Assembly (NCBI RefSeq): GCF_003573695.1
Contig: NC_039358.1
Location: 17,732,637 to 17,796,636 of the forward strand
Direction of reading: 5' to 3'
From: Papaver somniferum
Taxonomy: Eukaryota; Streptophyta; Magnoliopsida; Ranunculales; Papaveraceae
Length of the DNA: 64,000 bases
This document shows positions 30,464 to 56,774 of this stretch, one piece after another. The translations under genes were made by a program, and so were the position numbers. The notes under the pieces are model-generated. The model was not told where the DNA came from, searched no databases, and worked only from the letters and a program-made list of their open reading frames with translations. Numbering within the stretch: position 1 is the first letter of the stretch; each line of letters starts with the position of its first letter.

Positions 30464-31533
30464 TTATTTTTTCAAGCTATGACAGGCTTTGGAAATCCTT
30501 TTTGAAAGAGGTAAGGATTTTATAGGGGATTTCCTTTTCATCTTCTGAAAACAAGGTTTAACAGAAGAGAAATATTCTTGATCTTTAGTGCATATAATTT
30601 CACGATGATCTTGATTTTCACACAAGGATACCAAACTATTTGGTAAGACCTTGTAGTTCTCCACATCATTCTTTTCATAGTGATTTGAGAATGACATATA
30701 ATCAGGAGTAATTTGATGATAGTGCTTAACAGAATTAATCGAAGAAGTTCGATGTTTCTTATTAGTGATAGCAACTTCATGTCTTAAATTAAACAGTTGA
30801 CATTCCAGATCTTCAATCTTTTTAACCAAAATTTCCTTTTTCTAGTTGAAACATTTCTGGATAAGTAATATTGTGCATCATGGAATAATCTGGACTGTTA
30901 GGAGGACAGGTGTGATTATCAACAAAGAGGTTAAGAGAACTTTCACAGATATCGTTCTCAGGACAGTAGTCAAGAGTAGCCATCCATGCTTTTGTTAATT
31001 CACTTAACTTCTCATCAAAACTTTTGGAAGTATTATGGATAATTCTATAGCACTTAGAAAAAGATACAAAATCGTAGTTTTTCTGAACTTTTCTATCCTT
31101 TTTTCTGACTGACTGGGCTTTCTTTTGAGACTTTGTTTTATTCTGTCTAAGAGTTTTCTTAAGTTGTTGTATAAACAGTGACAGAGTTGAATTAAAAGAA
31201 TTCTCATCCCTTGTATCAATCAATTTAGGACGTCGAGATTTTTTATCATATGAAGCAATATGATTGCTTAACAAGTGACGTTTTTCTCTTTGACAAAGTT
31301 CAAGATCGAAAATTTTAAGCTTTCTGACAAGAGTATTTCTGGAAAGCGTGTCAAGGTTATTTCCTTCAACGATGGCATGCTTCTTAGAATCGTATTTATA
31401 TGGCAGGGATCTGAGAATCTTCATCACAATGTCCTTTTCAGGAATAGTCTTACCCAATGCAAAAGATGCATTAACAATCTCAGACACTTTGTGATTAAAC
31501 TCATCAAATGAATCTTCATCTGCCATACGAAGG
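30464..31533 (-). pseudogene. Sirevirus-type gag, C-terminal piece (split element)
   Basis: In minus orientation it begins at the insertion site with MADEDSFDEFNHKVSEIVN, the same gag core region as in the array (compare 4195-4140), and runs in one frame to 30822. A frameshift near 30835 is followed by a coiled-coil-like continuation (KKIEDLECQLFNLRHEV) to 30464. The CCHC zinc knuckles of the array gag are not recognisable here, only a weak KCYRIIH remnant. A coiled-coil C-terminus is typical of Sirevirus Gag. The N-terminal part lies at 46786-47129 and 60909-60961. Confidence 0.75.
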
Positions 31534-31727
31534 TGTAAATGGTGGATTTTCAACAAAGGGCAAAACCGTAAAATCATGATACTGCATGTTTTCTGATACA
31601 GCTTTCAGGCATGCGATGACTCATATTTTACGAAGCCACGATGAATATGTCTTTCGAAAAGCCTCCACTAGCTGAGCGTTCGATCCCTGGCATTTCGTCG
31701 TGCCCTCTATGTAGAATAACATAATTG

Positions 31728-32010
31728 GGCGGTTCTCGGTAGATTGAGAGCAATAACGCCTTCAGGACGTCGGTGATACTCACTGTTCCCTGACTACATG
31801 AGAGAGACCCCCATCTACATAGAAGAACGATTGGGCGGTTCTCCGTAAGATTGAGAGCAATAACGCCTTCAAGACGTCGGTGACACTCATTGTTCCCTGA
31901 CTATGTAGAGAGATCGTGTATAGACCCAGGCGGTTCTCCGTAAGATTGAGAGCAATAACGTCTTCAAGACTTCGGTAAGACTCGTTGTTTCACTGACTAT
32001 ACGCAAGAGA
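31728..32010 (+). repeat. Three about 80-100-bp repeats in the Tat-like LTR
   Basis: Three copies contain GGCGGTTCTCCGTAAGATTG, then AGAGCAATAACG, CTTCAGGACGTCGGTGA and CACTGTTCCCTGACTA. They begin near 31728, 31834 and 31930. The set recurs in the 3' LTR at about 43550-43830. Confidence 0.75.
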
Positions 32011-32069
32011 TCAAATTCTACTGTGACATTCACACTGAATTCCTAGAAGATAATCTATCTTATCTCATT

Positions 32070-32405
32070 ACTCTTATTTCATGATCGAAATGGTAATAGA
32101 TAAATGTATTACTCCGATTTCATGACCGAATCACGGCTGATCTCATGAAATGGTAATAGATATTACTCCGATTTCATGGTCGAACCCACGGCTGGTCTCA
32201 TGAAATGGTAATATCACCACTTATTTTATTACTCTGATTTCATGGTCGAATCCACGATCCCATGGAATGGTAATACCTATTTTATTATTCTGAATTCATG
32301 GTCGAATCCACGGCTGATCCTATGAATTGATAATAAAAAACTACTCACTTTTATTACTCAGATTCATGAATCATTCTCCGCTGAATTTCATAAATTAGTA
32401 ATAAA
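32070..32405 (+). repeat. Five about 55-bp hairpin-forming repeats in the Tat-like LTR
   Basis: Units contain GATTTCATGGTCGAA, then CACGGCTG and TCATGAAATGGTAATA. ATTTCATG and CATGAAAT form inverted arms, so each unit can fold back. The same series lies in the 3' LTR at about 43893-44225. Confidence 0.75.
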
Positions 32406-33779
32406 TACTCAAAAATCGAGCATTTGGACTATCAATGAGTAATCCCCATAAAATGGTGTAAGTGTACTCGAAAATGATGCACGAACAAACACCCAAATGC
32501 GCGAACGCACATTTAAAATATGAATGAATGAGGAATCTCACATAAAACAGGAGAGAGAGAATAATAATATTAAAATAATCGGAAAGCGCTCATGGTTCGG
32601 GCCCTAGCCGTGGCCGGTCCCATGCTTCCTCCATTATTTTCCTTATTTTTATTTTTTTCATAAACTCATGAAGACTCCTCCATTCCATCAACTTTCCTTG
32701 TTTGAGCAAAACTCGTGGTTTCTCCATATTTGTGCAGTTTCACAAAAATAATAATACTAGGGAAAGGTGTTGCGGGACCGGGCAACAACCGGCCGTCCAT
32801 GCCCTAGCCGTGGACGGTCCCACACCTTGCAATCCCTAATCTTTCATAAATTGTTATTTCTTTCATCTTGTGAAACTCTCCTGTTTTAGCAAAAATCATG
32901 GTTTCTCATATTTTCTCAAATATTGCGCGAACCATGAAAAGGGCCAAAAGTCAACATGGTCACACGACCGACTAGGCTACTCACGAAAAATATATTAAAA
33001 TATTATTATTTTAATATTCACAAAATATTGATCAAATGAGCATACTTGCTCATTCGAGCAAAATCGAGGATTTCAGTCAAAGATCGAACTCTTCTGAAAA
33101 TCCGAAATATTGCTCAAACGCACATCAGAAAATGTTGAAACTCTCATAACTGAGACACGGGCGTTATGGAAACACGGGAATGGTCCCTTGACCGACCAAG
33201 GGTGGCTTTAAGGCTTGCAACAAGACGTTCTCACACATTTTCACACTTTTTGACCTAATTTGTGCAATCGCTCATATTGGGTCCAAACTCTTCACAACTA
33301 CCTCAGAATTTGTGAAAACGCCCACCAGCGGCCCCACGGACACCAAGGGACGGTCTCATGCCACCTTGGTCAGTCCCTTACTTTTCTATAATTAGGTTTT
33401 CTCACCTAATGCTCAATGGAGCGCTATTTCAATAAATGATGAAACCGGCACTTAATCGTCATTCCTTCACCAATCGGTCAACTCAGGACCCTGGTGAACG
33501 CTCACTCGAGCAATTGTGCACAACATGGACGTCCACAATCCAATAAGGTCGGTCCCTCCTTCGCTCATGACCTATTATCAACAATTCGTCAATCGATGAG
33601 CAATTTCTCAAAAATTAGGATTTCGAACAAACGCTCAACAAATCACCATTCTGAGTAAATTCAAACACTAAATAAATCTATGTTAATCCAGTAAAAAACA
33701 CGCGGATTAATTATATAATATTCGGTAATCTACCAATATTTTAATTAATATTTTATTGGGTCACATCACCAATAAATAA

Positions 33780-34270
33780 ATAATTTGTCGAATCGAGCAA
33801 TACTTGCTCAATTACTCGAATATTGATCCAACTATCAATATTCAGTAATTCTTCGAATTGAGAAATACTTGCTCAATTGTTCGAATATTGATCCAACTCT
33901 CAGTATTCAGTAATTTGTCGAATTGCGCAATACTTTCTCAATTACTCGAATATTCATCCAACTATCAATATTCAGTAATTTATCAGTAATTCGTCGAATT
34001 GAGCAATACTTGCTCAATTGCTCGAATATTGATCCAACTATCAATATTCAGTAATTTATCAGTAATTCGTCGAATTAGGCAATACTTGCTCAATCGCTCG
34101 AATATTGATCCAACTCTGAATATTCAGTAATTTGTCGAATTGAGAAATACTTGCTCAGTCGCCCAACTATCAATATTCAGTAATTCGCAATACTTGCTTA
34201 ATTGCTCGAGTATTGATCCAACCATCGATATCCAGTAATGCGTCGAGCAATTGCTCAGTTACTCGAATGT
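33780..34270 (+). repeat. About 60-bp GAGCAATACTTGCTC repeats in the Tat-like LTR
   Basis: Six or more copies of a unit with AATTGAGCAATACTTGCTCA, then ATTGCTCGAATATTGATCC and AACTATCAATATTCAGTAAT. GAGCAATACTTGCTC is itself an inverted repeat. The 3' LTR has fewer copies (about 45655-45990). Confidence 0.8.
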
Positions 34271-34642
34271 TCTAACTGAGCAATTCGCCATTCATGCTCA
34301 ATTCAACAAACCCTAGACTCATTGTCTAATCAGTCAACAACTGACTAATTAAAACATGTTTGCCTCGCAGACTCCACGATTTGTGAGACATCAATCACGT
34401 CACAAATGGGGGATATCACTTAGGGTTTTGGTCTAGCGGTCTACGGCACGTGGATTCATCCATGACGAGAAATGTGCATAAGTCGTGCAAACGGTTGAAG
34501 GAGTTATCAAAGTAGTGGGTACACGATCAGTCAAGTCTCCACATGACATGGAACTGACTTTACCACGATTTCCCACTTTCCCACTCTTTCACTCAAGAAA
34601 CCGTCACACTTACAGGGATCAATGTGTTCGCTATTCTAACAA

Positions 34643-34650
34643 TATAAATA
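34643..34650 (+). promoter_or_regulatory. TATA box of the Tat-like 5' LTR
   Basis: TATAAATA in AACAATATAAATAAGTCTC, about 420 bp before the LTR end, with an identical copy in the 3' LTR at 46361-46368. It would drive transcription into the plus-strand gag. Confidence 0.55.
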
Positions 34651-35071
34651 AGTCTCTGAATCCACGTTTGAAAAGGACAACATTCGTCTACACAAGAATT
34701 TTTAGAGCAATCACTCTCATAAATTCCATCAATCGCTCAGAATTTATTCACAAAACTCATTTTCAGCAGTTCTTCAATTTGCAGAAACCTTCAACACATC
34801 CACAATCCTTGATCATCATCGATCCCACACAATTCTCAGCTTCCCTCCTACAGATCAATCCATCTCCCTCTTTGCGACCTAATTGACTCTGGAACGTCCA
34901 TTGACTTGGTTTAAGCCGGAATCCTACAGATAGATCTCTCGAATCTAAGCACTCCCTTTGCAGTGCATCTGTGTGAGGTTCAGCAGTTTGCTCGGTCGAG
35001 GAGTCTCGAAAGCGCGCTCAACTCTTCACTTCCCCAAAAAACCAGCAAACCGTTTTTCCCCATCCACAGGT

Positions 35072-35125: not shown

Positions 35126-37120
35126 ATGGCTGGTCTTAGGTCTAGGTTGGTTACAAATGCAAACGACGCTAGCACTAGCAACAATGATGGAAATCCAGAA
35201 ACTGTTCCTGCTTCCAACAGTGGTGGTGACACTACTCCTCCTCACACCAATGTCGAAAATCATCCTCTCTTCGGGCGGCATCCTGAAGAAATCAGAGAAA
35301 ATCCACCCACCATCGCTGATCTTATGAAAGTCCAGGAAGTTCTCGCCAAGAATCAAACTGATATGGATACTACTCAGAAGGAGTTATGTAACTATCTCAA
35401 AACTCTCAATGATAAGATGTCAGACAAAACCCAAGGGAAAGGAAAAGACAAGGAAACATCTCCAACTGTTGATCCCGAAGTTATTCCAGTCCTTGACGAT
35501 GATGAAACCCGCAAAGCTGTAGAACCTGAACCTACCGGTTTCATCACCCGTGAAGACCTGGAACGCTTTATGGAGAATCGTGGAAAAGGCCATGCACCGT
35601 CCGTGCATCGTCATCAACCTCCATATCCCGCTGCTACACAAAGAATCCCTCTCCCAAAAGGTTACACTTCTCCAACGTTCGCACTCTACAATGGAACGGG
35701 AAATGCTCGAGAGCATGTTTCTCGATTCTTGGAGGCATTATGAGAACATGAACACAACCATATTGTCCGTTTGAAGGAGTTTTCAAAATCCCTGACGGGT
35801 CGAGCATATACTTGGTATCACAACATTGCATCAGGGAGCATAGCTAATTGAGGAGAGATGATTAATACTTTATACAGGATATACTTCTTTGTTTCTGAGC
35901 AAGTTACTCTTTCCGACTTAGGAAGGATGACTCAGAAGAATAATAAAAATCCGAACGACTATGTGAAGAAGTTCAGGATTCAAGCTTTGGATTTTCATGA
36001 TCCTAATGTGACTGAGCAACAACTGGTGGACTTGTACATCAACGGAATGATTCCAGTCTATAGAGCCTTGTTGGAAAATCTCCGATTTCAAACCTTTTCG
36101 GAACTTCATGAAGCGGCCAAGAGATCAGCAACCACCGCTCCAGCTTTATTAGAAAAAACCAAAACTGTCAAAGTCGAGGAACCAAACGCTCGGAGAAGCA
36201 CCAACAGGCGTTTAATCAACAAGAAGTACAATGTTGAAACTTCCATGAATGTTGCTGAAGGGGGAAAAAGATAAGCTGAGACACAGCAACACAAGAATAC
36301 TCCTCCGACATCTCACCCTCCAAAAGCACCAAGGAAGGACAACCAGGCTAGAAATACACAACCTCCAGTTCAGCATCAACAGAACGATGAGGAAGCACCC
36401 GACTTTCCTTTTCCCATTGAAGAAGTGATCGAACTGTTGGAAGTTTGGATTCAAGATGGTGCGATCAAATTGCCTCCCGTCAAAAAGGAACCAACTGAGG
36501 AACAAATGGAAAATCCACGCTACTGCCATTTACATAGGTATGTCAGTCATCCAACAAGTGATTGCAGAACTTTGAAGCGCATATTCAAAGAAAAGGCCGA
36601 CTCAGGGGAACTGGGGACTGAAGGAGTGCACAAAAATCCTTTCCCGTTCTGAACATTCGCACTCTCTGAGCAGCCGGTCAAAGAAGCAGTCCAATCCCTA
36701 ATCGAGCATGTCTGCGAATTGTTGTACTTGTCAAAGGCCCAAAGAGATGACATGTTTGATGCATTAAACCATATTGTGTCAGGAAAACGTCTAACAATTC
36801 AAGAGACACTCTCTGAACATCCAGTAACAAACAATGAGATGTACGACTGGGGACTTCTCACCAAGGTCTATCTCAAAGGAAATGAATTCAAGCAAGCACT
36901 TGTCGATTTTGGCACTGCTGTTAACATCATCCATTTGAAAACCCTCAGAGATGCTGGCATCACTCCACAAGAAGCAACTCATGCTCCTATCTCAGTCAGA
37001 GACCATGAGGGAATCTCCAGCGATGCTTACGGTTACATCATTATCAACATAAGAAATGATTCAACCTGGACAGAAAATAAATTCTTCATAATCAAGGAGA
37101 GGATCCAGGATATGACATGA
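35126..37120 (+). pseudogene. Tat-like gag-protease frame with four internal stops
   Basis: The start is the ATG at 35126 (MAGLRSRL), 57 bp past the LTR; the frame is also open upstream but within the LTR. One frame runs to 37120, interrupted by TGA 35741-35743, TGA 35849-35851, TAA 36272-36274 and TGA 36650-36652. The N-terminal gag has FALYNGTGNAREHVSRFLEAL-like sequence near residue 195. A capsid-like region follows at about 245-345, then a zinc-knuckle-like motif YCHLHRYVSHPTSDC near residue 466, typical of Tat/Ogre gag. An aspartic-protease-like ALVDFGTAVNII lies near residue 592, with Phe after the catalytic Asp instead of Ser/Thr/Leu. The protein cannot be made in one piece. Confidence 0.8.
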
Positions 37121-37841
37121 TTCTTCGGCGAGCATGGATTCATGATGGAAAGTTGCTGCGATATCTTCATCTTCAGTTGCACAATTCTCCATCGAAGAAA
37201 TCTCCGACTCGGAAGATGATCAACCTTTCGAGCACTTGGGAAAAGTCGAAGCCTTGATGGAACTCACACAAAAACCTGGGGAGGGCGCCCACGAATTCTT
37301 CAGGAGGTTTCGCACTCAGGCAAGTATTATTCCCCATGATCTGTATGTATTGCCAACTTTCAAATATGCTACCCTAGTCCGGGGACTCAGTTCTGCTCAA
37401 AACCTAGCTATCACCAAACGCTATGAGTGGTTAGTCTCACCTCAGCAATACTTCATCAAATGGTTAGATGCAGAACCTCTCCAAATCCATCATCTCACTA
37501 ACACGGTCATTGCTAGGATAATGACTGAGTTTCACAATCAATATCCTAAATATTCTCCCTTGCACGAGTGTCCACATGTGCCACAGAATGGAAAGCTCCA
37601 CCAACATGGAACCTTACGAGGAATTCCGAATCAGCAGAAGATATTCAAGGCACGGGAAACCAAACCGAACAAATTTCATGAAGGAGATTTGGTTCTTAAG
37701 GCAACCAGACGCAATTTGCACTTCACAAAGAGTTCTAACTGGGAAGGACCTTTTATGATTCCTAAGTCAGTTGCTGGAGGATATTACAAGTTGGCTGACA
37801 TCAAGGGCAAGACAAGTATACCAGTGATTCATGAAAATTGA
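37121..37841 (+). pseudogene. Gag-like segment joined to integrase C-terminal tail
   Basis: An open frame (37236-37841) in a different phase from gag-PR. Its first part reads as a gag core (MELTQKPGEGAHEFFRRFRT). Its last part reads as the end of a Gypsy integrase (HEGDLVLKATRR, NWEGPFMIPKS, GGYYKLADIKG). The roughly 3 kb of RT, RNase H and integrase core normally between protease and this tail is missing, so the element has an internal deletion plus a rearranged gag-like piece. Confidence 0.65.
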
Positions 37842-38154: not shown

Positions 38155-38901
38155 CTAAAGAAAGCCCTCAAAGTATGATTTCTGTTTCTCAGCATTTTCC
38201 AAGACTTGCAAAGACGCTTTCTCCGAGTCCAGCTTTTTGGTCAGCTCAACAATCTATGCCATTTTCTTCATCACGGCATCACTAGTAAAAGGGATGTTAT
38301 TCACTATTGCATTCTTGATGGTGTTGATCTTCTGAAGAAGCCATTTCAAGTTAAATCCAAGTCTCTCAGAATTATCCAAGTTGTACTCCCAATCAAAGAT
38401 TACATCTCGAGTGACGGTACTTCTGGGCCTGGTACGAATATCATATATGACACGCAATATGTTTCCTAATTGCATAGTCAAGAAGTAGATGCGTTCAGGA
38501 TCTCTTGCAACGACAATATGGCCATACATTTCCCGCAACTTCTCATACATGCTAGCATACCCAGTGGGAACGCTGAATCCACCAACAGATACGTGATATG
38601 GGAGTAGCGCACCAAATGGAGGCTCACAAAAAATCCCTGCGTTAGGATACTCATGTATCACTATGCGATTCTCAATTACTGGAACATCCTCTATCGTCAT
38701 TGTAGCATCTTCTTCTGGGACAGTCTTTTCTGTTCTTGGCTCGGTTTCAACAGCAACTGGAGTCTCGGTTTCCTCCACGGCTTCAATAATGATATTCTCA
38801 TAACCCGGAGGTGCAGATATGGTTATGTCACTGCTTTGGTTCACCACATTGGTCGAATCACCAACATTTTCTCCACTATTCTCAACGTCGGTATTTGGCA
38901 C
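38155..38901 (-). pseudogene. PMD gene, C-terminal exon
   Basis: It follows acceptor CATATTAG at 38902 and opens with VPNTDVENSGENVGDS, a Glu/Thr-rich acidic stretch. Then comes a compact region (GIFCEPPFGALLPYHVSVGG, YASMYEKLREMYGHIVVARD, FLTMQLGNILRVIYDIRTR) and a helical end. After the TAG at 38256-38254 the same frame continues as a heptad-like helix (IVELTKKLDSEKASLQVLEN) to 38155. I do not recognise the compact region; it is not part of the PMD itself. Confidence 0.6.
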
Positions 38902-39535
38902 CTAATATGAAGATTACATGAGGTTAGAGCACGGAAACCAAAAGCAACCATAAAATTCAGAAATTAATTGAACTAACATCATCTAAGTTTATTATTATGC
39001 ACCTAAGACATGCAAAAATAGTGTAGAAGTCATGAAACACGTTTTCAAACAAACTCAGCTGAGGAATTTTTACATGGCCGTGCATTCAACGGTGAACTGG
39101 GAGCAATTGTTAAGAAATCTAAGATTGAGTCATATACCATTTTTTTCGTATGTATGGTTTCTACAACATATCAAAATATCATGGCAATCGGATAAACGAG
39201 TAAGGAGTTCTAGCCAAAACATTGGATTACATGCCAGCTGAAAATTCCTGAAAGTCTCCTGGAAGTTTACTGTTTCGCCTTTTTCAGGCCCTAAACATGC
39301 TCAAAACTCAAAAATCTTCTTCGACAAAGCTTGGGAATTTTCTGGAATTGAAGATACATATGCAGATCGCGAAAATCCGACGTCGGATGAAGATTCTACA
39401 ACATTTTAACTAAAAAACTGAGGTCTGAATTTTCAGGTGACGTATTTCGGCAAAATTTCTCATATATTCATTGGAATTCTCATTCATTCATCAACGAATC
39501 AGCAACATTATACTTCTATGAAGATATATACTTAC

Positions 39536-40076
39536 TCGAGGAGTCTCCAAGATATTCGAAGGGTTAGCAAGGCTGGCATTAACATTGGGAGCGCCATTAT
39601 TTCCATTCGGTTCCAATTCTCGAAGGCTCTCGTTCTCAGCATTATTTGAAGACGAATGAGCAATCTGACCATGTCGTATTTCCACAAAAATCTCCTCCTG
39701 GATTTATCAACAATAATCATCATTATTTCATTCAAGGAAATGTCGAAATCACTTACATGAAAGGATACTCACTTGAACCTCTTTATCGCTGCTGGATTCC
39801 TGGGTTGTTCGTATAGAGGAAAGACGAAGACCATCAATAATTGATGGAGCAAAATTCTGAAACAAATTAACAACATTATTTTGTGATCCTAATTACGTGG
39901 ACGAGAAAATCGCAACGATGGAGGAAGTGCTAACAACTCGCCAAAGAAGCAGCTGGAGACTGCGTATTGTTCGCTATCATTCTGTAAATCATCCTGCTCC
40001 TGCCTTCTCCACCCTGGGAACTATCTTGCCATTCAGAGAAGTCTACAGGAATCCGAGGTCTCACAGCACGACCAAC
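39536..40076 (-). pseudogene. PMD gene, small middle exons
   Basis: Inferred exons on the minus strand. One starts at 40076 after TTCATTGTAG (VGRAVRPRIPVDFSEWQDSS). Its 3' end is unclear, because using GTAATT at 39896 leaves only a 40-bp intron and an in-frame TAG at 39932-39930. Next is 39856-39773 (84 bp; acceptor TTTGTTTCAG, donor GTGAGT), then 39697-39536 (162 bp; acceptor AAATCCAG, donor GTAAGT). The last two are whole numbers of codons and stay open. No known domain is seen; they are Ser/Asn-rich. Confidence 0.55.
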
Positions 40077-40154
40077 CTACAATGAATTAATCGAAACAAT
40101 TAAAGGTGCGATTACCATGCTTTTACCAAAAATCATAAGGAGATATATATTTAC

Positions 40155-41959
40155 CTGTGAAGATTCTGGAGATGTTTTTCTTTTATCACCACTAGAAAGA
40201 GGCTTCAACCGTGGGCGATCCGAGAGTATCTCAGCAGAAGGAAACACTCGTGTCGGAGATTTGACATCCATCACAAACTTATACAGGTGTTCGAGTTGTT
40301 GATTCCAGAATTCTGCATAACCTGGAGTTACGTAAATATCCCGGTTGGTAAAAGAAGACACATAATCGCTCCCTTCCACATGTGTGTTATCTAAATGAGC
40401 CTTCAAATACTCAATCGATGACTTATTCATTCGATGACCTAGAGCACACTGATCGAGACCCATTTGCCGAGCTGCTCTGTCAATATTATACTCTTCCACC
40501 TGAAATTCTCTCTGCATCACCGACACTATGTATCCAGGAGTGCATCTCAGCATAAAATATTTCTCTCCTTCACTCAACTCAGTGCCAGACTTTAAAGTGA
40601 TGATCTCTTTAGTATCATTGAAAGTGACTAATTGCGATAAGAAGGGAGGTATCTTCGTCCAAGGACGAAAATTGAATTCAGACTCAGTGTCTAAAATACT
40701 GGTGAGGTGCGTCTTCTTCCGTGGTATTTTTGTGGACCAACGCATAATCCTAGCACTGTTTTTCTCAAAGATGTCATGACGAGCATCAACATTAGGTCCT
40801 TGCAAAACTTACGAGGAGTTGGAGCATATTTCTCAAGGTGCTTCCATATTAAAGCTTGGAGAAACATGGTGTTAACATATGTTTCAATCTTCATGAAGTC
40901 GTCGGAGACGCTGGAGTCTACAACTAGGGAGTCTAGGTTGGAAAATAACGAACCCAAAAATAGACTACCAATGGGAAGTTTCTCACCTTTAGCCATCTTT
41001 ATAGCGAAATGAATCACAAATGGCTTCAATAAATGTCCACTATCTTCAAGAATGTCTCTGGACAAACACAAGCATAAGAAAGCAGCAATGGTCAGAGTAC
41101 TATCGGCAGGTTCTTCAGGAACTCCATCTCTCGGCCACCAGTGTCTCAACTATTCATCATAGCAAGTTTTGGGTGGATCGTTGATTTTGTGCATCGTGGC
41201 TTCCAACACGCTAGACATCCCCTTTTCCTCTGCTGAGAGTTCCCAAGGGAAATTACCAGTAACTGGGAGATGCAATAAAGCAACTACATCTTCCAAAGTG
41301 ACAGTGAATTCTCCCCATCTGCATATGAATGTGTGAGTAGGAATGCACCAACGAGCAAGCAGAGCCACCATACCTGGTATGTCATGATTGATCACTAAAT
41401 CTCCAGTCGCTTGAATAGCTCGTGTCACTTGTGCACGATCCAGGATAGTTCTTACATGACCATATCCCAACATGTGGCGTGCCCATCCGGAGAAATGCGC
41501 AAGGGGTTTTCGAAAAAGTTTGAGTTCCATGTGAGAACCCAAATAGTGCTTCCCACTCAAACAGAATCTAATTATCACCTGAGGAATTACCAACTTGTTT
41601 TGAGTAGTGCTTCTGGGACTTATGAGCAACCGAAATGCAGAACCTGAAGGACGCTTTTCGGGTTTGTACTGAAACACAAAAAATTCGTCATCAGCATTTG
41701 GGATGTTCTTGGTCTTGTACTCTTTCCTCCTAGAAGTCCTAGAATCATAATTTCTTGAAGATACATCAGCAGAAACCTCCTCTCCGGAAGAATCCTCTCC
41801 AGAATCATCATCTCCAGAAGAATCATCATTTCTGGAAGACGCGTCTGTAGAAACATCCTCTCTGGGATTTCCCTCTCTAGAAACATCATCTTCAGAAGCT
41901 CTACTACGGGAACCAGTCATCTTTGGAAATTTGTTGCGACATTCATACAAAAATTTCAT
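40155..41959 (-). pseudogene. PMD gene, large coding exon
   Basis: The first open stretch, 41965-41153, ends at TAG and continues in the same frame (LRHWWPRDGVPEEPADST...) to about 40800. The rest, ARHDIFEKNSARIMRWS onward, is one base out of phase. A GTAAGT at the frame change (near 40808) could be a remnant splice donor. The exon ends TCTTCACAG followed by GTAAATATAT at 40154, a consensus 5' splice site. The PMD motifs lie on both sides of the breaks, so exon order is collinear with the family. Confidence 0.7.
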
Positions 41960-42876
41960 CAACACAATGGAACTAAAGCAACAGAATAATTATGATGCTC
42001 ACATCAACGTCTGCAAAATGGTAATCCTCAACTCTTACCTATTTACGATTTCACGAACTTAGTGATAACAACGTAAAACTCTGAAAAATCGCTCGTTTCT
42101 TCAAACCTGTAAGGACGAACAAAATTTAAAGTCAAACACCTGACTTTTCATGAAACCATGAATGATTCATATAACCTTCCATATGAACATTCGCTGATTT
42201 TTTACGTGTACATACACTTTAAAATCACCAAATTCATGCATACACTACGAGTTAACGAACTCACCAAATATTGTTTGCTTTCAACAATTTTTCGTGAATC
42301 AAAGTTTGATTTTCTCTTTAACAAAAACGTGAACAGTCACGCGTTTTAAAAAAAAATCGTGAGTTAATAACTCACGTAAATTATAAATAAAAAAAAAAAA
42401 AAAACTTTTTTGCTCATACGAGCATTCGCCTATGAAACGAGGGTTTTTACTATTTTTGTAAAAGTCTACATGTTCCAAATAAAGCTTTGAAAGTTCACAC
42501 ATAAATTTTATCATGAACTACAGGTCTTTTCAAAATTCCTTTAACTCTAAGGATCATTATTTATTACTTTTACTACGAACCTACGTTCTTAAAAATATTT
42601 GTGAAAGTTCATGCTTTGAAAACAAATTTAGGTTTTCATGAAACCTCGTAAACAAAATTTTCTTTACTGCAACTGGACTATATTTATCCAATTATATGTG
42701 TATCTCTTCCATATAAGGGATTTTTGCTCGTTTCTTAAACTATTGAACGAACGTGCATACATGTTTTCAAAAGTAACAAATTTCATGAAATCTACGCATA
42801 CATGTGCACATAGAATTTTGTTTTGAACAACTCATGAAAAATACAAAAATACAACAGCAAAAAAAAAATCGTGTAC

Positions 42877-43000
42877 CTTTGTCGGCGCCGGATTTCGCCG
42901 GAAATCGGCCGGCGGCGGTCGGTGATGGAAGCACCGGCATACACCAAAAAAACAAAATCTCTGCTCGGACGGGAAGGAGAGGAGATGCTCGGTTAATAAA
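42877..43000 (-). other. Inferred GC-rich 5' UTR exon of the PMD gene
   Basis: A GC-rich island on the minus strand (CCGCCGCCGGCCGATTTCCGG) within AT-rich DNA ends at CGACAAAG followed by GTACACG at 42876, a plausible splice donor. It sits about 30 bp and more downstream of a TATA box. The start point near 43000 is estimated from the TATA position. Confidence 0.45.
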
Positions 43001-43028
43001 AACATAAAATAATTTTAGGGCTTTTTCC

Positions 43029-43036
43029 CTTTTATA
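43029..43036 (-). promoter_or_regulatory. Antisense TATA box upstream of the PMD gene
   Basis: TATAAAAG on the minus strand in TTGATATAAAAGGG, about 1.1 kb before the first coding exon and inside the element's internal region, not in an LTR. It suggests the cargo gene carried its own promoter. Confidence 0.5.
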
Positions 43037-43355
43037 TCAATTTTATTTTTAAAACCTAATAAAACACGGGTTTCCTTTTTTGGACTCGGGCCCGTAAATC
43101 CTAAATCGACCAAAACTGGACTTTTGACCGACCAAATCAGCGATGCTTCATCTCTCCATGCTCACGGAATCACACTTTATCATCCCATCAGGGTCGTCAT
43201 CTGAACATTTGCTCGTACATGACACCATTGGAGCAAATCGAGGATTCTGATAATACCTTTGTAGACCGAGTTCAACCACTGATCTCGTCGACCGAAAATC
43301 ACCATTTCATGCTTACTGCAGAACATGACTGTCCCTCACCAAGCATGGGACTTAA

Positions 43356-46300
43356 TGTAGATGGTGGATTTTCAACAAAGAGCAAAACCGTAAAATCATG
43401 ATACTGCATGTTTTCTTACACGTCTTTCAGGCGTGCGACGACTCATATTTTACGAAGCCACGATGAATATGTCTTTCGAAAAGGCTCCACTAGCTGAGCA
43501 TTCGATCCCTGGCATTTCGTCGTGCCCTCTATGTAGAATAACATAATTGGTCGGTTCTCCGTAGATTGAGAGCAATAACGCCTTCAGGTTGTCGGTGATA
43601 CTCACTGTTCCCTGACTACATGAGAGAGACCCTCCTCTACATAGAAGAACGATTGGGCGGTTCTTCGTAATATTGAGAGCAATAACGCCTTCAGGACGTC
43701 GGTGACACTCACTGTTCCCTGATTATGTAGAGATATCGTGTATAGACCCAGGCGGTTCTCCGTAAGATTGAGAGCAATAACGTCTTCAAGACTTCGGTAA
43801 CACTTGCTGTTTCACTGACTATACGCAAGAGATCAAATTCTACTGTGACATTCACCACTGAATTCCTAGAAGATAATCTATCTTATCTCATTACTCTTAT
43901 TTCATGATCAAAATGGTAATAGATAAATGTATTACTCCGATTTCATGACCGAATCACGACTGATCTCATGAAATGGTAATAGATATTACTCCGATTTCAT
44001 GGTCGAACCCACGGCTGGTCTCATGAAATGGTAATATCACCACTTATTTTATTACTCTGATTTCATGGTCGAATCCACGATCCCATGGAATGGTAATACC
44101 TATTTTATTATTCTGAATTCATGGTCGAATCCACGGCTGATCCTATGAATTGACAATAAAAAACTACTCACTTTTATTACTCAGATTCATGAATCATTCT
44201 CCGCTGAATTTCATAAATTAGTAATAAATACTCAACAATCGGGCATCTGGACTAACACTGAGTAAGCCCCATAAAATGGTGTAAGTGTACTCGAAAATGA
44301 TGCATGAACGAACACCCAAATGCGCGAACGCACATTCAAAATATGGACGAATGAGGAATCCCACATAATAAAGGAGAGAGAGAATAATAATATTAAAATA
44401 ATGGGGAAGCGCTCATGGGACGGGCCCACCGGCCGGCCGGCCGTGTCCTATACGTGGCCGGTCCTATGCTTCCTCTATTATTTTCCTTATTTTTATTGTT
44501 TTCATAAACTCATGAAGACTCCTTCATTCCAGCAACTTTCCTTGTTTGAGCAAAACTCGTGGTTTCTCCATATTTTCGTGGTTTCTCCATATTTGTGCAG
44601 TTTCACAAAAATAATAATACCAGGGAAAGGTGTTGCGGGACCGGGAAACATAGCTGTCCGGCCATGCCCTAGCCGTGGTCGGTCCCACACCTTGCAATCC
44701 CTAATATTTCATAAATTTTTATTTCTTTCATCTTGTGAAACTCTTCGGTTTTAGCAAAAATTATGGTTTCTCCATATTTTCTCAAATATTGCGCGAACCA
44801 TGAAAAAGGCCAAAAGTCATGGTCACACGACTGACTAGGCTACTCACGAAAAATATATTAAAATATTATTATTTTAATATTCACAAAATATTGATCAAAT
44901 GAGCATACTTGCTCATTCGAGCAAAATCGAGGATTTCAATCAAAGATCGAACTCTTCTGAAAATCCGAAATATTGCTCAAACGCACATCAGAAAATGCTA
45001 AAACTCTCAGAACTGAGACACGGGCATTATGGAAACACGGAAATGATCCCTTGACCGACCAAGGGCGGCTTTAAGGCTTGCAACAAGCCGGTCCCACACG
45101 TTTTCACACTTTTTTGACCTAATTTGTGCAATCGCTCATATTGTGTCCAAACTCTTCACAACTAACTCAGAATTTGTGCAAACGCCCACCAGCGGCCCCA
45201 CGTCCACCAAGGGCCGGTCTCATGCCACCTTGGTCGGTCCCTTATTTTTCTATAATTAGGTTTTCTCACCTAATGCTCAATGGAGCGGTATTTCAATAAA
45301 TGATGATGAAACCGGCATTTAATCGTCATTCCTTCACCAATCGGTCAACTCAGAACCCTGGTGAACGCTCACTCGAGCAATTGTGCACCACATGGACGTC
45401 CACAGTCCCATGAGGTCGGTCCCTCCTTCGCTCATGACCTATTATCAGCAATTCGTCAATCGATGAGCTATTTCTCAAAAATTAGGGTTTCGAGCAAACG
45501 CTCAACAAATCACCATTCTGAGTAAGTTCAAACACTAAATAAATCTACGTTAATCCAGTAAACAACACGCGGATTAATTATATAATATTCGGTAATCTAC
45601 CAATATTTTAATTAATATTTTATTGGGTCACATCACCAATAAATAAATAATTTGTCGAATCGAGCAATACTTGCTCAATTACTCGAATATTGATCCAACT
45701 ATCAATATTCAGTAATTTATCAGTAATTCGTCGAATTGAGAAATACTTGCTCAATTGCTCGAATATTGATCCAACTATCAGTATTTAGTAATTCGTCAAA
45801 CTGAGCAATACTTGCTCAATTGCTCGAATATTGATCCAACTCTCAATATTCAGTAATTTGTCGAATTGAGCAATACTTGCTCAATCGCCCAACTATCAAT
45901 ATTCAGTAATTCACAATACTTGCTTAATTGCTCGAGTATTGATCCAATCATCGATATCCAGTAATGCTTCGAGCAATTGCTCAGTTACTCGAATGTTCTA
46001 ACTCAGCAATTCGTCATTCATGATCAATTCAACAAACCCTAGACTCATTGTCTAATCAGTCAACAACTGACTAATTAAAACACGTCTGCCTCGTAGACTC
46101 CACGATTTGTGAGACATCAATCACATCACAAATGGGGGATATCACTTATGGTTTTGGTATGGCGGTCTACGACACGTGGATTCATCAATGACGAGAAATG
46201 TGTGTAAGTCTTGCAAACGGTTGAAGGAGTTAGCAAAGTAGTGGGTACACGATCAGTAAAGTCTCCACGTGACATGGAACTGACTTTACCACGATTTCCC

Positions 46301-46785
46301 ACTATTTCACTCAAGAAACCGTCACACTTACAGGGATCAATGTGTTCGCTATTCTAACAATATAAATAAGTCTCTGAATCCACGATTGAAAAGGAAAACA
46401 TTCGTCTACACAAGAATTTTTCGAGAAATCACTCTCAGAAATTCCATCAGTCGCTCAGAATTTATTCACAGAACTCATTTTCAGCAGTTCTTCAATTTGC
46501 AGAAACCTTCAACACATCCACAGTCCTTGATCATCATCGATCCCACATAATTCTCAGCTTCCCTCCTACATATCAACCCATCTCCCTCTTTGCGACCGAA
46601 TTGACTCTGGAACGGACATTGACTTGGTTTAGGACGGAGTCCTACAGATTGATCTCTCGATTCTAAGCACTCCCTTTGCAGTGCATCTGTGTGAGGTTTA
46701 GCAGTTTGCTCGGTCGAGGAGTCTCGACAGCGCGATCGACTCTTTTCTTCCCTAAAAAACCATTAAACCGTTTTCCCCATCCATA
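43356..46785 (+). repeat. 3' LTR of the Tat-like element (3430 bp)
   Basis: It starts TGTAGATGGTGGATTTTC and ends CCCCATCCATA, so its last base pair has changed from CA to TA. It is collinear with the 5' LTR, with scattered substitutions, a duplicated TCGTGGTTTCTCCATATTT near 44560-44590, and fewer 60-bp repeats. The divergence by eye is a few percent, so the insertion is not very recent. It is followed directly by GAAGG. Confidence 0.9.
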
Positions 46786-47129
46786 GAAGGTTTTCCCAAT
46801 CATAATTTAGGTTTTGAAGCCTAGCTTATTTTTCACAAGTATTCCCGTCAAATACGGTTTCTAAGATATCTCAGGCTTCTTTAGACTTTGTGCACGTAAT
46901 CACATGATGCTGAAGATCTGGGGTAATGGCAGATATGATAGCATTTAAGTCGTCGGAATTTTGCTTTGCAGTAAGGATTTCTTATGGACTATATCTACCA
47001 GTATCCTTAGGTATAGATACATCGCCTTCTGTATTAACCCGAGGATCATAGCCATTAACAACACATACCCATGTTTGAAAATCACGAGCTTGAAGAAAAG
47101 CACGCATGACGATTTCCCACCATAAGTAG
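46786..47129 (-). pseudogene. Sirevirus gag, middle piece (split element)
   Basis: Between the Tat-like and Athila-like insertions. The minus strand reads LWWEIVMRAFLQARDFQTWV and onward, matching codons 20-130 of the array gag. In-frame stops occur after YSP, KEA and CEK. The Tyr-Leu-Trp-Trp context here shows what the array's TAA replaced. It joins 60904-60961 on one side and 31533 on the other. Confidence 0.8.
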
Positions 47130-48975
47130 TGATAGGTGTTGTAAAACACCTAATTTTATATCAATGGTTATGCTTTCTTTGCTATTCTTCTTGTGAAATA
47201 CGTATCTTATTGTTACTTTTGAGTTCATTAGGTGCAATGGAGTCATTGGAAGCAAAAGAAGGAAGAAAGCACTCTTTTGGAGCATAAGGGAAGAACAGTC
47301 AATTCACATGCGAGTGGAAGCTATACCAAGCTAAGGTTATGAGCGAAAGAATGACAAAATTGTCATTTCATGGGCGAACACTATCTGGAGCCCAGTCAGG
47401 GTTAAGGGGCAACCTTGTTCATGTTTCAGAAATAAGGGATGCCATTTTGGTGGCCTGTATTAATCTGCAGGGTGTCGATAACAGTTTTGGTTCTTACCCA
47501 TCCCTGGGGCGTAATTATCCAACCCAGCTTTTCCAACCCTAGAATCGAAAGTCTCTCATTCATTTCGTTTTGAATCTGAAATTGAGAGGAACTACTGCTG
47601 TTGTTTTGTCCGAGAGATAGAGAAGAATATCTGAAATTGAGAGACGAAGATAAGCAGAAAGGTGATAATGTTGCTAAGATGGGGTTGGAGTTAAATTGAG
47701 TTTTAAAGTGTTGATGATGGTTAGATCTCGTGGTGATTCTGTAGAATTTCTGAAGTAGAATGGATCGAGAGCTGTGTTGGTGACGCTGTCGAAGAATTAA
47801 TGGGTTTGATGTTGAATCCAAAGAACAGAGAAGAGATAAGGGTTTGAGTTGGTTTGAATTTGGTAGCTGGTTTGATGAGTTCTCGAGTTCAACAGAGACA
47901 TGGAGAGGAGCTGCTGCTGGTGATTCTTGAGTGGGGGTTAGTTGTTGGCGAAGAATTAAAGCATTGGTGTTGAAATTGAAGATGGGTTATGTTCATTTAA
48001 AGGTTCAGAAAGAGTTGCTGGTATAGATTTAGAGCTTTGAGAAGATTACAAGGGTTTTTGAGTCTGATGCCATAAGTTGTGGTTGTGCTTCATTGGCAGG
48101 GTTGAGTTAGATTGCAGAGAATGGCTCGACAATTTGGAAGTACAGTGCGAGATGGTTGAGCAGTAATGTGAAAGAACAAGGTGTTAGTAGAGTTTGCAGC
48201 TAGATAAACTGCAGAACTGAAGCTGTAGGTGTTGGTAATGTGTGTATGAGAATTGCAGGCATGTTGCAACTGTGATTGGCTAAGCTGCAGTTTGTTACAG
48301 GGAATAGAGATTGAAGTTGTATAGAAGTGGTTCCAGTAAAGGATTTTGAGACTGGCGAGTTAGATGGATGTTGGTTGAGTTACAAGGCAGCGAAGATTGG
48401 CTGTTCTTGCAAGTGAAGATTAGATGTTATCGCAAATGGAGTTGTTGTTGCAGCTGAACTAAAGACTTGTTGCAATTGAATGAATGCAGGTATTGGTGCT
48501 ATGTGTTGCAATGACCTGAGAAGGGTATGAGTCTATGATGCAGCTACAGTTAGTGCAGAGAAATGGGTTTGTGCTGATGATGTTCAAGTTGAGTTGTTAA
48601 CGGAGATCAGAATGAAGCAGGGAAAGAGCTACTAGTAGAGATCAGATGAGCATGAGCTAGTGGTGTCGTGTTATGTTGCAAAGGTTATGGAGCTGTGAAT
48701 GGAATAGCAGTCATGGGTGTACAAGGAAAGATTGGAGCTGCATTTCAAGTTGCTGGTGGTATTGAATATGAATGATACTGCATGTGGAATTGTTAGTGTT
48801 AATGTTGCAGTTATGAACTATATTACAGGTGTATGTGTTGAGAGCTTCATGAAAATGGAGATGCATAATTGCGAGAATTGGCTGGACCTGACTTGCAGGT
48901 GGTGGCATCGAATCGCAGTTAGTTTACAAGGAGCAGTGTAGATGAATGTGTAGGAATGAATGCAGTTGGATTTGG

Positions 48976-49100
48976 CAGTGATGCACAATGATTGTGCAAC
49001 GCAAGTTGGTTTGCCAAGAAGCAGTGATGCACAATGATTGTGCATCACAAGTTGGTTTTCCAAGAAGCAGTGATGCACAATCATTGTGCATCAGCAAAGC
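48976..49100 (+). repeat. 45-bp direct repeats with TGCACAAT/ATTGTGCA palindrome
   Basis: Three copies of GCAGTGATGCACAATGATTG, then TGCA(T/A)C and AAGTTGGTTTGCCAAGAA, the last one truncated. The 3' LTR has two (59578-59650). Each copy can form a small hairpin. Confidence 0.8.
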
Positions 49101-49129
49101 TTTGGCCTGCAAAATGGTTGTGGCTTAAC

Positions 49130-49310
49130 AAGTCAGCTGAGTTAGACTTAACTCAGACCTGACTTAACTCAGACCTGACTCATCTGACTAGAACTGACTC
49201 ACCTTGACTCGGTTGACCCGACCGATTTGAACCGTTGACCGGTGACCGGGCGGACTTTGCCGGTCACCTGAGCTGTTTTCCGGTGACTTTGCCGGCCAAT
49301 TTCCGGCGAC
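49130..49310 (+). repeat. CTGACT/ACCGG-rich repeat stretch in the Athila-like LTR
   Basis: It is made of repeated GACTTAACTCAGACCTGACT and CCGGTGACTTTGCCGG-like words. The 3' LTR (about 59700-59830) has one fewer copy of each, so the stretch changes by unit gain or loss. Confidence 0.6.
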
Positions 49311-50193
49311 GATTTTGGACATATTTTCTACATGGGTTTTTCTCACATATGGGCTTGGTGGACATCTTGCTATTGGGTTTTGGGCTTTTGAATACTTGAC
49401 CTAATTTTGGAAGGGAGAAAAGCTACAAAAAGAAAAGTTTTCTACAACTTTTGTGATCACGTATTATTCTTGGAGCTTTGGAGATAGCTACAACTAGGGT
49501 TTGCTTTCGTTTATCTTTCATCTTCTTCAATTGTTTTATGATTATGATTATGATGAACTCCATTATTATGAGTAACTAAACTCAATTATTGGTTATGGGA
49601 TAAAAGTTGATTTCCAACATGTTATTTGATTCAATGAATTAGTTTTGTCTCAATACTTTATTGTTTATGTTTCATTATTAATAATGTCATATGATTTGAA
49701 TGCTAGTTTGTTTGAGTCCGGAATCAATTAGAACTTATTGCTCTTAGGGAGTTAAACTTAATTGTGCTTTTACACTTTAGGTTGCTTTCTAGGTAGATTT
49801 CACAATAGCATCTTTTAATGTTGTTTGTGATAAAATTGGGAAATAAACGGGATACTCTTGCGATCAAGATATCCTAGGACTTTTAGTAAATGAGAGATTA
49901 AAATTCCAATTCTAGTCATTGATGAAAATACATGTTTGTGAATGATACTATCGCATGACCAATATCTTCTCCTTATTGATTATTCAAATTATTTTATTTC
50001 TTTTGATTACTTTTATTGCTTTGTTTATTTAGATAAAAAAAATCCCCCCCTTTGGTTACTTAAGAATCTGAAAATTTGATAACAACAAAAGCCTCTCTGT
50101 GGGAACAAACTCTTTCTTATCACGTACTATATTTATATCTAGTTGAGTGAGAAAGTGAATTATTTTTGACGCATACGATAGCGATCAAATTTT

Positions 50194-50210
50194 TGGCGCC
50201 GCTGCCGGGG
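50194..50210 (+). other. Primer-binding site, tRNA-Asp type
   Basis: TGGCGCCGCTGCCGGGG, six bases past the LTR end. It is one base from the common Athila PBS TGGCGCCGTTGCCGGGG. Confidence 0.88.
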
Positions 50211-50332
50211 AAGCATACGGCTTATTATTAAGTTTTTAGTTTCTTATCATCATTTCTGCTTTCATATTTTCTTTTTGTTTTCTTGTCTTTTTTCTCACTT
50301 GTTTGCGAGAATTGTTTTCAGGTACCTAATCC

Positions 50333-53300
50333 ATGGCTTCTAAAGATTGGAACTATCCAAGGTGCGGGATAGCTACTCGAAAAGGCACAATACTCCAACC
50401 AAGTCAAGACACGACGGAAGAACAAGAGTTAGAAGTGGAAGAAGAATTACAACTAGAAGAAGAACAAGAGGTTCCATTTATAGAAGAACCACTAGTTGAA
50501 GAAGAAGAAGAAGAAGAAGAAGAAGAAACGGGTGATGCAAATCGTACACTCAAGGACTTGGCTTCTCATAGGCTTGATGCACAACGGTGGTGTATTGAGA
50601 CAAACTCAACCTTCGAGATCAATCCGGGGTTGATTAGAGAGTTACCGAAGTTTCATGGCATGGCAAATGAAGATCCATACAAGCATCTCATGGATTTCCA
50701 CAACGTTATCATGGCTATGCTTCCACCGGAGACTAATGCGGATGGAGCAATGTTGAAAGCTTTTCCATTATCTTTGGCGGACAATGCTAAGGAATGGTTG
50801 TATTATTTATCATCCGGAAGTGTCACTATATGGAACGGGTTAAAGAAACTTTTTCTAGAGAGGTATTTTACTGCGTCAAAGGCTACTCAAATTTGCAAAG
50901 ACATTTGTGGGATAAAGCAACACGTAGGAGAATCTTTGTATGAATGTTGGTTGCGATACAAGAGATTGGTGGCAAGCTGTCCACACCACCAATTTAGTGA
51001 CGTGATGATAATACAATAATTCTACGAAGGTCTCCAAACAAGTGATAGATATCTTCTTGATGCAGCGGGTGATGGTGCACTAGTGAACAAGACGGTGGCC
51101 CAAGCTACCGAGTTGATTGAAAGCATGGCTGCGAACTCGCAACAATTCTACACAAGAGGTGAACCAATGGTTAGGCGAGTGCATGAAGTTACGGATTCAT
51201 CATCACACCGTGATCAAAGGATGGATAACATGGAGCAAATGATGCAAAAGATGGTTGCGGTTATTTTACCTTCATATGGTGAAGAGTTGGAGCAAGCTAG
51301 TGCGGTCTTTCCAAATCAACAAAGACGGTACGATCCCTACTCCAAAACTTACAATCCAGGATGGAGAGATCACCCCAACTTTAGCTATGCAAACAAGCAA
51401 GGCGCGGTTCAACAACCTACATTCAACCTTTCGGGTGGATTTCAACCACAACAACAATAATTCCAGCCACAACATCAACAATTTCAGCAACCACAACAAT
51501 CGATGCAAAATCAAGGTTCCGATATCGATGCAAAGCTTCAAACTTTTATGCAAGGCATTTCTACCATGTTTAAGGAAAGTCAACAAGAAACTAAGAGTGC
51601 TATAAAGGAGTTGCAGACACAAATGGGCTCCATGGCGGTTGATATAAACAAATTGAAGGCACAAAATAGTGGGAAACTCCCTTCTCAACCTATTAACCCA
51701 AAAGAGGGTGTTAATGCTATTACGTTGAGAAGTGGTACACAACTTGTGCAACCCGAAGTTATTGATTCGGGCAAGGTGGAAACACCAAAGGAACCTGTTT
51801 TGGAGGAGAAGAGTGATGATTCTCCCCAAACTTCTGAGGTACCTATTCCTAACTCTAAAACTCCGGTTTCTACTTATGTTCCTCCTTTACCTTTTCCTCG
51901 CAGATTTGCAAGCTCCAAGAAGGCGGAACTAGAAAAGGAGATTTTAGACGTTTTAAAGAAGATTCATGTGAACATACCACTCATTGATGCGATCAAGCAA
52001 GTTCCCAAGTATGCAAAAGTGTTGAAGGACTTGTGTACCAATAAGCGAAGGCTCAAAGATAATGAAGTGCTAAGTATGGGGGAAAATGCTTCGGCAATCT
52101 TACAACACAAACTCCCACTGAAATGTAAGGATCCCGGTAGCTTTGACATTCCAGTCACAATTGGTAACACCACATTTAACAAAGCTATGTTGGATTTAGG
52201 TGCATCCGTTAATGTTATGCCTGCATCTATGTACAATTCACTTGAGTTAGGTCCTCTTAAAAAGGCTGGAATTGTATTGCAATTAGCCAATCGCTCTAAT
52301 GTTTACCCAATGGGTATTGTTGAGGATGTTCTTGTGCAGGTTAATCAACTTGTATTTCCAGCTGACTTTTGCGTGTTAGAGATGAATGAAGGGTCACCAG
52401 ACTCGTCTCTTCCATTGCTACTTGGGCGTCCCTTCATGAAAACGGCGAAAACCATTATTGATGTGGATAAAGGAACGCTAACTATGGAGTTTGATGGAGA
52501 AACAATACGTTTCAACATTTTCGAGACGATGAGATATCCTAGTGATGTCCACTCTTGTTTCTCCATTGATGTTATGGATACATTGGCACAACAAGTATTT
52601 GAATTGAATGGTGATGATGCTTTGGAAACCGTTTTGACTACATCCATGGATAATGGTGTAGAGTGTGGTAATGAAGTCAAGGAAACCCTTGGTGATCTTA
52701 ATTCACTACAAGGATGCCCAGAAACTCATAATATCTCTTTTATTTCTTTACCATGCAGTGATGAAAAGCTTGTACCTTCCATTGTTAAATCTCCAAAGTT
52801 AGAATTGAAACCTCTTCCCGATCACCTAAAGTACTTATACTTGGGTGACAAGGAAGATTTACCTGTGATTGTTTCTAACAAGCTTAGTGAATTACATGAG
52901 CAAAAACTTCTAAGGGTGCTAAGGAAGTACAAGACGGCCATAGGATGGATAATTGCCGATATCAAGGGTATAAGCCCTGCCGTGTGTATGCACAAAATCC
53001 GTTTGGAGGACGATGCAAAGCCTACAAGGGAAGCGCAACTTAGTTTGAACCCTCCCATGATTGAAGTTGTGAAAAAGGAGATACTAAATCTTTTGGACGT
53101 GGGTGTTATCTACCCCATATCCGATAGAAAGTGGGTGAGCCCGGTACAAGTAGTACCAAAGAAATCAGGTGTGACGGTGGAGAATGATAAGAACGAACTT
53201 GTGCCAACTCTTGTGCAAAACGGTTGGAGGGTTTGTATTGATTACAGGAAATTGAATGCCACCACTTGGAAGGATCATTTTCCATTGCCTTTTATTGATC

Positions 53301-56771: not shown

Positions 56772-56774
<3 letters not shown>

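Follow-up and report, generated by a model that had tools for sequence, protein, structure and literature searches.

An antisense PMD gene with introns in a probably non-autonomous Tat-type Ty3/Gypsy family of opium poppy

We analysed a 64,000-nucleotide stretch of the Papaver somniferum genome (the window, C1:17732637-17796636; the assembly searched comprises 2.715 Gb), in which a long terminal repeat (LTR) element carries a gene on its opposite strand, between an integrase-like tail and the 3' LTR (38155-41959, minus strand). We interpret this feature as an accessory gene carried antisense by a non-autonomous family of Tat-type Ty3/Gypsy elements, a reading to which we give a probability of about 0.6. 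Comparison of genomic copies supports one conserved unit opposite gag-pol, made up of a TATA box, a probable intron in the 5' untranslated region (5'UTR), five coding exons that encode a plant mobile domain (PMD) and a C-terminal module, and likewise supports purifying selection on the antisense reading frame across copies.

The PMD lies in the first coding exon, which was read as three pieces in the window copy. Each piece matches PF10536 (E 2.3e-14, 9.8e-6 and 0.002), the first scoring 53.8 bits and being the sole one above the Pfam cut-off. Joined with an X at each break, the pieces scored 109.2 bits in a single match (cut-off 34.9 bits; E 3.3e-31; residues 175-515), confirming by hidden Markov model the PMD assigned in a preliminary description of this DNA. 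A protein search returned four matches, including two from P. somniferum and one from Camelina sativa, and a profile search returned 13, 11 of them from P. somniferum. The match of the joined pieces, together with the frame-specific selection in exon 1 described below, led us to reject a chance open reading frame (ORF). A sequence search of the PDB yielded nothing convincing (best E 0.0011, a designed protein, with the PMD of locus L005 as query), and Rfam gave 0 matches at the gathering threshold.

The five coding exons (Table 1) join in phase 0 as long as intron 2 begins at its GC donor. Junctions predicted earlier at 40154, 39772 and 39535/38902 proved correct, and a fourth coding intron (39941-39857) was added to them. 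In the window copy, exon 1 contains an in-frame TAG at 41150-41152 and a frameshift near 40.80 kb, exon 5 contains an in-frame TAG at 38254-38256 (the next stop of that frame is at 38155-38157), and intron 2 has its GC donor at 39941; because of these two stops, the frameshift and the donor, this copy is unable to make the protein. Intact exons nevertheless exist, since exon 1 is open in P0001. Some of the predicted junctions are matched by the NCBI gene models P0002, P0008 and P0012. The poppy model P0002 runs collinear with the window gene at the acceptor and the end of exon 2 and at the exon 4/5 join; it lacks about 33 residues from the end of exon 1, as well as portions of exons 3 and 4. 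By eye, the exon 1/exon 2 join falls at the same residues in P0012 (isoform X2) and P0008, with P0012 continuing into the C-terminal module and P0008 passing from exon 2 to exon 5. A further model, P0003 (P. somniferum LOC113338938), joins the N-terminal part of the antisense gene to a PF02992/PF13963 transposase-type protein and represents a nested insertion or a fusion.

The same arrangement recurs at other loci. Exon 5 was matched at 150 of 150 scored places, drawn from 13,710 first-look candidates, with 74-100% identity (window included). The best 30 of these, hereafter window-type loci (L009-L038), comprise the window itself (L009) and 29 others, taken with 1.5-kb flanks. All 29 other copies are collinear with window positions 40.4-37.3 kb or most of them, and the PMD profile was found in 30/30 loci. 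Donor GT and acceptor AG were present in 29 and 29 other copies for intron 1, in 27 and 28 for intron 2, in 29 and 28 for intron 3 and in 29 and 29 for intron 4. For eight of the 29 the sequence was followed further in the direction of the 3' LTR (L052-L059); every one contains PMD sequence, none has an unbroken, complete exon 1, each being broken there or partial, and seven, L059 being the exception, reach the same LTR family. The placement of the gene between the integrase-like tail and the 3' LTR thus recurs in other copies, and the collinearity of 29/29 copies with splice sites kept in 27-29/29 upholds the idea that the antisense gene, introns included, is a standing part of the family. 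A one-off secondary insertion, envisaged in the preliminary description for the case that all other copies lacked the gene, is rejected: other copies do have the gene, 29/29 are collinear and the extended copies repeat the arrangement.

Selection was estimated as omega, the ratio of nonsynonymous to synonymous change. Exon 1 gave 0.22 in frame versus 1.09 and 1.19 in the other two frames, and its PMD part 0.20 (eight sequences, the window and L052-L058, with L059 left out). Over six copies that share the junction lacking reverse transcriptase (RT) described below (L012, L017, L027, L028, L033 and the window), omega in exon 1 was 0.19, with 14 of the 15 pairs between 0.13 and 0.29. The end of exon 1 pooled with exons 2-5 gave 0.44 versus 0.93 and 0.82 in the other sense frames, with intron 4 as a control at 0.76-0.90 (both from 406 pairs of 29 copies); these copies were picked by exon 5 similarity, so exon 5 distances are biased low. 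Conserved splice sites and frame-specific selection across loci, the marks of a spliced gene, are thus both present.

On the promoter side, ten copies were aligned from the 3' LTR to the ATG: the window and L052-L058, which carry the PMD, and L047 and L049. The core TATAAAA is found in nine of them, L058 having TTTAAAA. A GT-type donor for the 5'UTR intron is present in nine (not L054) and a near-consensus one (AGGTAAGT or AGGTATGT) in four, the window not among these; the donor patterns were written only after the alignment had been seen. An antisense start site in this region and use of the 5'UTR intron are predicted from the alignment.

The element is bounded on both sides by a 5-bp target site duplication (TSD), GAAGG, which is perfect, as stated in the preliminary description. 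Its two LTRs differ by a Kimura two-parameter (K2P) distance of 0.050, giving an age of 1.9 million years (My) at 1.3e-8, 3.6 My at 7e-9 and ~3.1 My at 8.1e-9, the rate used for Papaver in PMC12582370. The window copy was inserted some 2-4 My ago and has since decayed. Both LTRs contain short tandem repeats (31727-31989, 33690-34170 and the matching stretches of the 3' LTR), which form a 61-nt family plus one with 65/76-nt spacing.

Ahead of its integrase-like tail the window element has no match to RT, RNase H or an integrase core. Pfam found no RT among its ORFs, and tblastn with queries from L049 (RNase H, integrase zinc part and rve) found no RNase H or integrase in the element; the matches of these queries at window 54.1-55.3 kb belong to a neighbouring element. 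The same queries matched in 0/30 window-type loci, which reach 1.5 kb past exon 5. At ~36.75-38.25 kb, the part that we take to be protease-like from its motif (Pfam gave no protease match) runs straight into the integrase-like tail. This RT-less junction aligns in 26 of the 29 other copies and fails in L011, L020 and L021, so the loss of RT looks old and shared. In L033 a single 339-aa frame spans the protease-like part to the integrase-like tail, and the element-sense frame at 37330-37841 is also under purifying selection (omega 0.41 versus 0.90 and 0.92 in the other frames). Among the hallmarks of Ty3/Gypsy elements, the window copy thus has the LTR pair and the 5-bp TSD, its 3' LTR ending in TA and not CA, and gave no match to RT, RNase H or integrase, a weak gag match standing alone. 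It was assigned to Ty3/Gypsy because it is kin to integrase-bearing copies whose LTRs are 93-94% identical. The diagnostic of Tat elements, a second RNase H between RNase H and integrase (PMC6317226), is found in L049 and not in the window element, and it is through L049 that the Tat kinship suggested earlier is borne out.

These integrase-bearing copies were reached through the LTRs. The first kb of the 3' LTR was matched at all 40 scored places, drawn from 6,653 candidates, and five LTR pairs 9-13 kb apart were drawn from the matches for examination of their interiors. Four matches flank L047 and L049 and are 93-94% identical to the window's LTR over 1 kb. L049 has the order RNase H, second RNase H, rve; L047 has a second-RNase-H match and aligns to L049 at 81% across that region. 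L050 and L051 retain gag/protease similarity, L051 also remnants of exons 2 and 4. Window positions 42015-43402 are common to L047 (83%) and L049 (91%), parts of this upstream stretch being well conserved, and the similarity drops at about 42015, some 95 bp ahead of the ATG. Beyond that point L047 has, by eye, a charged N-terminal ORF, to which the L049 counterpart is 40% identical, and the C-terminal ORF of L049 is 30% identical to exon 5 (E 6e-13). From 150 scored loci with a C-terminus of the L049 type, ten were taken for comparison (partner-type loci, L066 being the L049 locus). The charged part is present in 10/10 and rve in 9/10 (exception L068), and the PMD profile was found in 0/10 partner-type loci versus 30/30 in L009-L038, a PMD further upstream being ruled out just for L047 and L049, both of which were read to the 3' LTR. 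The comparison supports L047 and L049 as integrase-bearing relatives with the same upstream stretch, a related C-terminus, a charged part and no detectable PMD.

The preliminary description had called the gene MAIN/MAIL-type, proposed that the element captured or co-evolved a host-type gene, and suggested that the C-terminal exon may be a second captured module. The comparisons give no support to a MAIN/MAIL type or to a recent capture of a host gene, and speak against a second module. In a tree of 25 PMD rows (P0003, P0012, L061, L062 and L064 left out), the window PMD clusters with 12 other rows, 10 of them from P. somniferum, in a clade split 100/100 from the other poppy PMD type (L001-L008, L060, L063 and L065), the tree holding no labelled MAIN/MAIL row. 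This second type (L001-L008, L060-L065) has many copies, some interrupted within the PMD, and a PFGEM-like motif, presumably PMD-C-like, a label backed by no labelled row. A published tree places Gypsy PMDs in PMD-A, with clades PMD-A1/A2 containing Gypsy PMDs only, and MAIN/MAIL in PMD-C (PMC5418596). As for the C-terminal exon, a related version ends the antisense gene of the PMD-less integrase-bearing relatives, so we rejected a second captured module and regard the exon as the element's own (the C-terminus is of partner type in loci with PMD 0/10). This module is predicted, with low confidence, to be helical. A protein search aimed at it gave 141 candidates, none with E <= 1; the search was insensitive, because the visibly related part of P0012 went undetected.

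A captured host gene, transduced with its introns and now serving as a dosage or decoy copy of a silencing factor, is accordingly a poor fit and in our judgement improbable. Plants do have PMD genes of their own that act in silencing (PMC5418596, PMC7156037), and the introns are real, to judge from the splice sites. The window PMD is nevertheless far from the other poppy PMD type sampled, antisense genes without a PMD share the upstream stretch and the C-terminus, and in the published tree some PMD clades consist of Gypsy members alone and a Gypsy PMD goes back to the angiosperm ancestor (PMC5418596). As to the origin of the gene, the introns favour neither side. The window PMD is confined to one exon, and the PMD is interrupted internally in 6/6 other poppy PMDs L060-L065, which were chosen because their match was split or partial; those of L001, L004, L006 and L008 are open throughout the matched stretch. 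Because an intron-split PMD is thus undecisive, some other poppy PMDs being unsplit too, the odds of capture rise slightly.

How an antisense gene could serve such elements can be sketched. The introns may persist because the packaged RNA would be the opposite strand, on which splicing is impossible. The protein might act in cis, or preferentially so, on the elements' own chromatin or transcription, because selection on single copies is otherwise hard to explain; its most likely action would be interference with PMD/PP7-type silencing. An RT-less element would move in trans via an integrase-bearing partner, and the shared C-terminus may let the PMD protein join, or compete with, the protein of that partner. 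We tentatively propose, as a possibility and little firmer than that, two interacting classes of one Tat family with alternative antisense genes behind a shared promoter and 5'UTR, one encoding a charged protein (integrase-bearing) and one a PMD protein (RT-less), with related C-terminal modules. The PMD version would then act as a regulator belonging to the parasite itself, retained by selection once RT had gone, docking through the shared C-terminus on the partner system and shielding or favouring RT-less copies.

Several observations weigh against the accessory-gene interpretation. The PMD profile was found in 0/5 LTR-pair interiors (control, 8/8 PMD-side loci positive), so that the PMD is not in every copy of the family. 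Window-type and partner-type loci were each picked by similarity to one query, with 1.5-kb flanks, and their rows are therefore not independent. Among the selection estimates, the antisense frame mirroring codon position 3 gives an omega of 0.48, with 471 stops; the three short introns read as codons give 0.35-0.99, a range that makes this control noisy; and the closest of the 15 pairs has an omega of 0.95, as expected of neutral decay after insertion. The copies are also mosaic. In the six RT-less copies the mean synonymous distance (dS) of exon 1 is 0.73 against intron 4 distances of 0.13-0.30, and distances for exon 1, intron 4 and 37.3-37.6 kb conflict within pairs, indicating recombination between subfamilies; part of the selection could thus have acted in unseen lineages, RT-bearing ones included. 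The 5'UTR donor is poorly conserved. AlphaFold models of the PMD (P0001 and 13 relatives) and of the C-terminal exon (window exon and P0012) were too poor to use (predicted local distance difference test, pLDDT, 37.6 and 44.8), and the silencing role suggested for the protein is drawn from MAIN/MAIL1 by analogy only.

The mosaic distances, the broken or partial exon 1 of all eight extended copies and the omega of the closest pair speak for an ancestral relic, in which the PMD gene served RT-bearing elements and RT-less derivatives carry it passively, the low omega dating from before the loss or being imported by recombination. We regard this as rather unlikely. The RT-less junction recurs in 26 of the 29 other copies, which makes the loss look old and shared; a domain loss common to the Group I elements of Papaver was inferred in a 2025 study (PMC12582370); none of the 30 window-type loci matched RNase H or integrase, and exon 1 of the six RT-less copies is still at 0.19. 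Improbable too, to our mind, is that the RNA and not the protein matters, with antisense transcription making double-stranded RNA or regulating the sense transcript and the ORF being incidental. Antisense transcription of extra ORFs has been discussed in such terms elsewhere (PMC7264820), and the upstream stretch is well conserved in places. The frame-specific selection, the joining of the exons in phase 0 and splice sites that preserve the frame nonetheless indicate a protein.

If the accessory-gene interpretation holds, the family bears on a wider matter. PMD proteins belong to both parties in the conflict between plants and transposons, and it is worth asking why Gypsy elements carry them. 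Selection on a PMD gene in elements that have discarded RT suggests that a copy gains an advantage from the gene as such. The pairing seen here, with the same upstream stretch, a related C-terminus and the PMD present or absent where integrase is absent or present, makes the question testable with two protein versions in one genome.

Table 1. Coordinates (window numbering) of the LTR element and its antisense gene
Feature	Position	Strand	Remarks
5' LTR	31534..35068	+	TG...CA ends; TSD GAAGG at 31529-31533
gag-like ORF	35852..36274	+	weak PF03732 match, E 0.0023, below cut-off
Protease-like segment	36653..37120	+	presumed from motif; no Pfam protease match
Element-sense ORF ending in integrase-like tail	37146..37841	+	from the preliminary description and by eye; no Pfam match
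Coding exon 5	38155..38901	-	linker, C-terminal module, short charged tail; intron 4, 39535-38902
Coding exon 4	39536..39697	-	intron 3, 39772-39698
Coding exon 3	39773..39856	-	intron 2, 39941-39857; GC donor in window copy
Coding exon 2	39942..40076	-	intron 1, 40154-40077
Coding exon 1	40155..41920	-	Ser/Glu/Asp-rich N-terminus and PMD; ATG at 41920, further in-frame ATG at 41959
Probable 770-nt 5'UTR intron	42107..42876	-	acceptor AG in 10/10 aligned copies
TATA box GATATAAAAGGG of antisense gene	43027..43038	-	this 12-mer in 6/10 aligned copies
3' LTR	43356..46785	+	TG start, TA end; TSD GAAGG at 46786-46790

Two further repeat features lie elsewhere in the window. Positions 1-23925 form a tandem array of about four 5.65-kb units, 97-98% identical, the unit carrying by eye a Copia-type gag-like ORF (3534-4550, minus strand); diverged pieces of this unit recur inverted near 62-64 kb. 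A second LTR element adjoins at 47130-60888, with LTRs at about 47130-50171 and 57734-60888 and a long open gag-pol (51461-54934 and 54938-55699), Athila-like by eye.

Gypsy elements with a PMD are known, and so are extra ORFs in antisense orientation. A PMD has been recorded in 57% of Ogre elements and Transposase_28 in 23% of Retand (PMC6317226), and the PMD is the commonest atypical Gypsy domain in one survey (PMC9289625). Antisense coding regions occur in all Retand clusters studied, 97% with TRP28 (PMC11963269), and antisense ORFs, with an own promoter in Grande, have been described (PMC7264820). Retand is the most abundant lineage in three Papaver genomes, its Group I holding mainly GAG and PROT and its Group III all six domains (PMC12582370). 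The terms PMD, mobile domain and intron are absent from the main text of the Retand survey (PMC11963269), as are PMD, mobile domain, antisense and intron from that of the Papaver Retand study (PMC12582370), and we found no report of a spliced, segregating antisense PMD arrangement in the literature, supplements and most subscription papers aside. What is unusual in the poppy family is the combination of a promoter, a probable 5'UTR intron, five coding exons and selection in RT-less copies, and also the segregation, in the sampled loci, of PMD versus charged part with integrase absence versus presence.

With TR-GAG elements, LTR elements that keep gag and are without RT, the poppy family shares its reduced content, but it also keeps a protease-like part and the antisense PMD gene. 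Among its close counterparts are the Gypsy-encoded PMDs (PMD-A1/A2, Ogre), likewise PMDs inside a Tat-group Ty3/Gypsy element (PMC5418596, PMC6317226, PMC9289625); the poppy gene differs in lying antisense at the 3' end and in having five coding exons, its own TATA and a probable 5'UTR intron, and the poppy elements in being without detectable RT. The MAIN/MAIL1-PP7L proteins, known as silencing proteins (MAIN, MAIL1 and PP7L; PMC7156037), have the PF10536 domain in common with the poppy gene, but MAIN/MAIL1 are host genes of the PMD-C clade (PMC5418596, PMC7156037). In place (pol to 3' LTR) and orientation the poppy gene equals aORF-3R of Retand, Grande and RIRE2, and an own upstream promoter is reported for the maize Grande gene23 too (PMC7264820, PMC11963269); those antisense ORFs are, in Retand, mostly Transposase_28 (PF04195), whereas the poppy gene has a PMD. 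Finally, the non-autonomous Group I Retand elements of Papaver come from the same genus, have a similar sense-strand content and are proposed to have undergone a shared domain-loss event (PMC12582370), and the antisense-PMD family of opium poppy may be that Group I.

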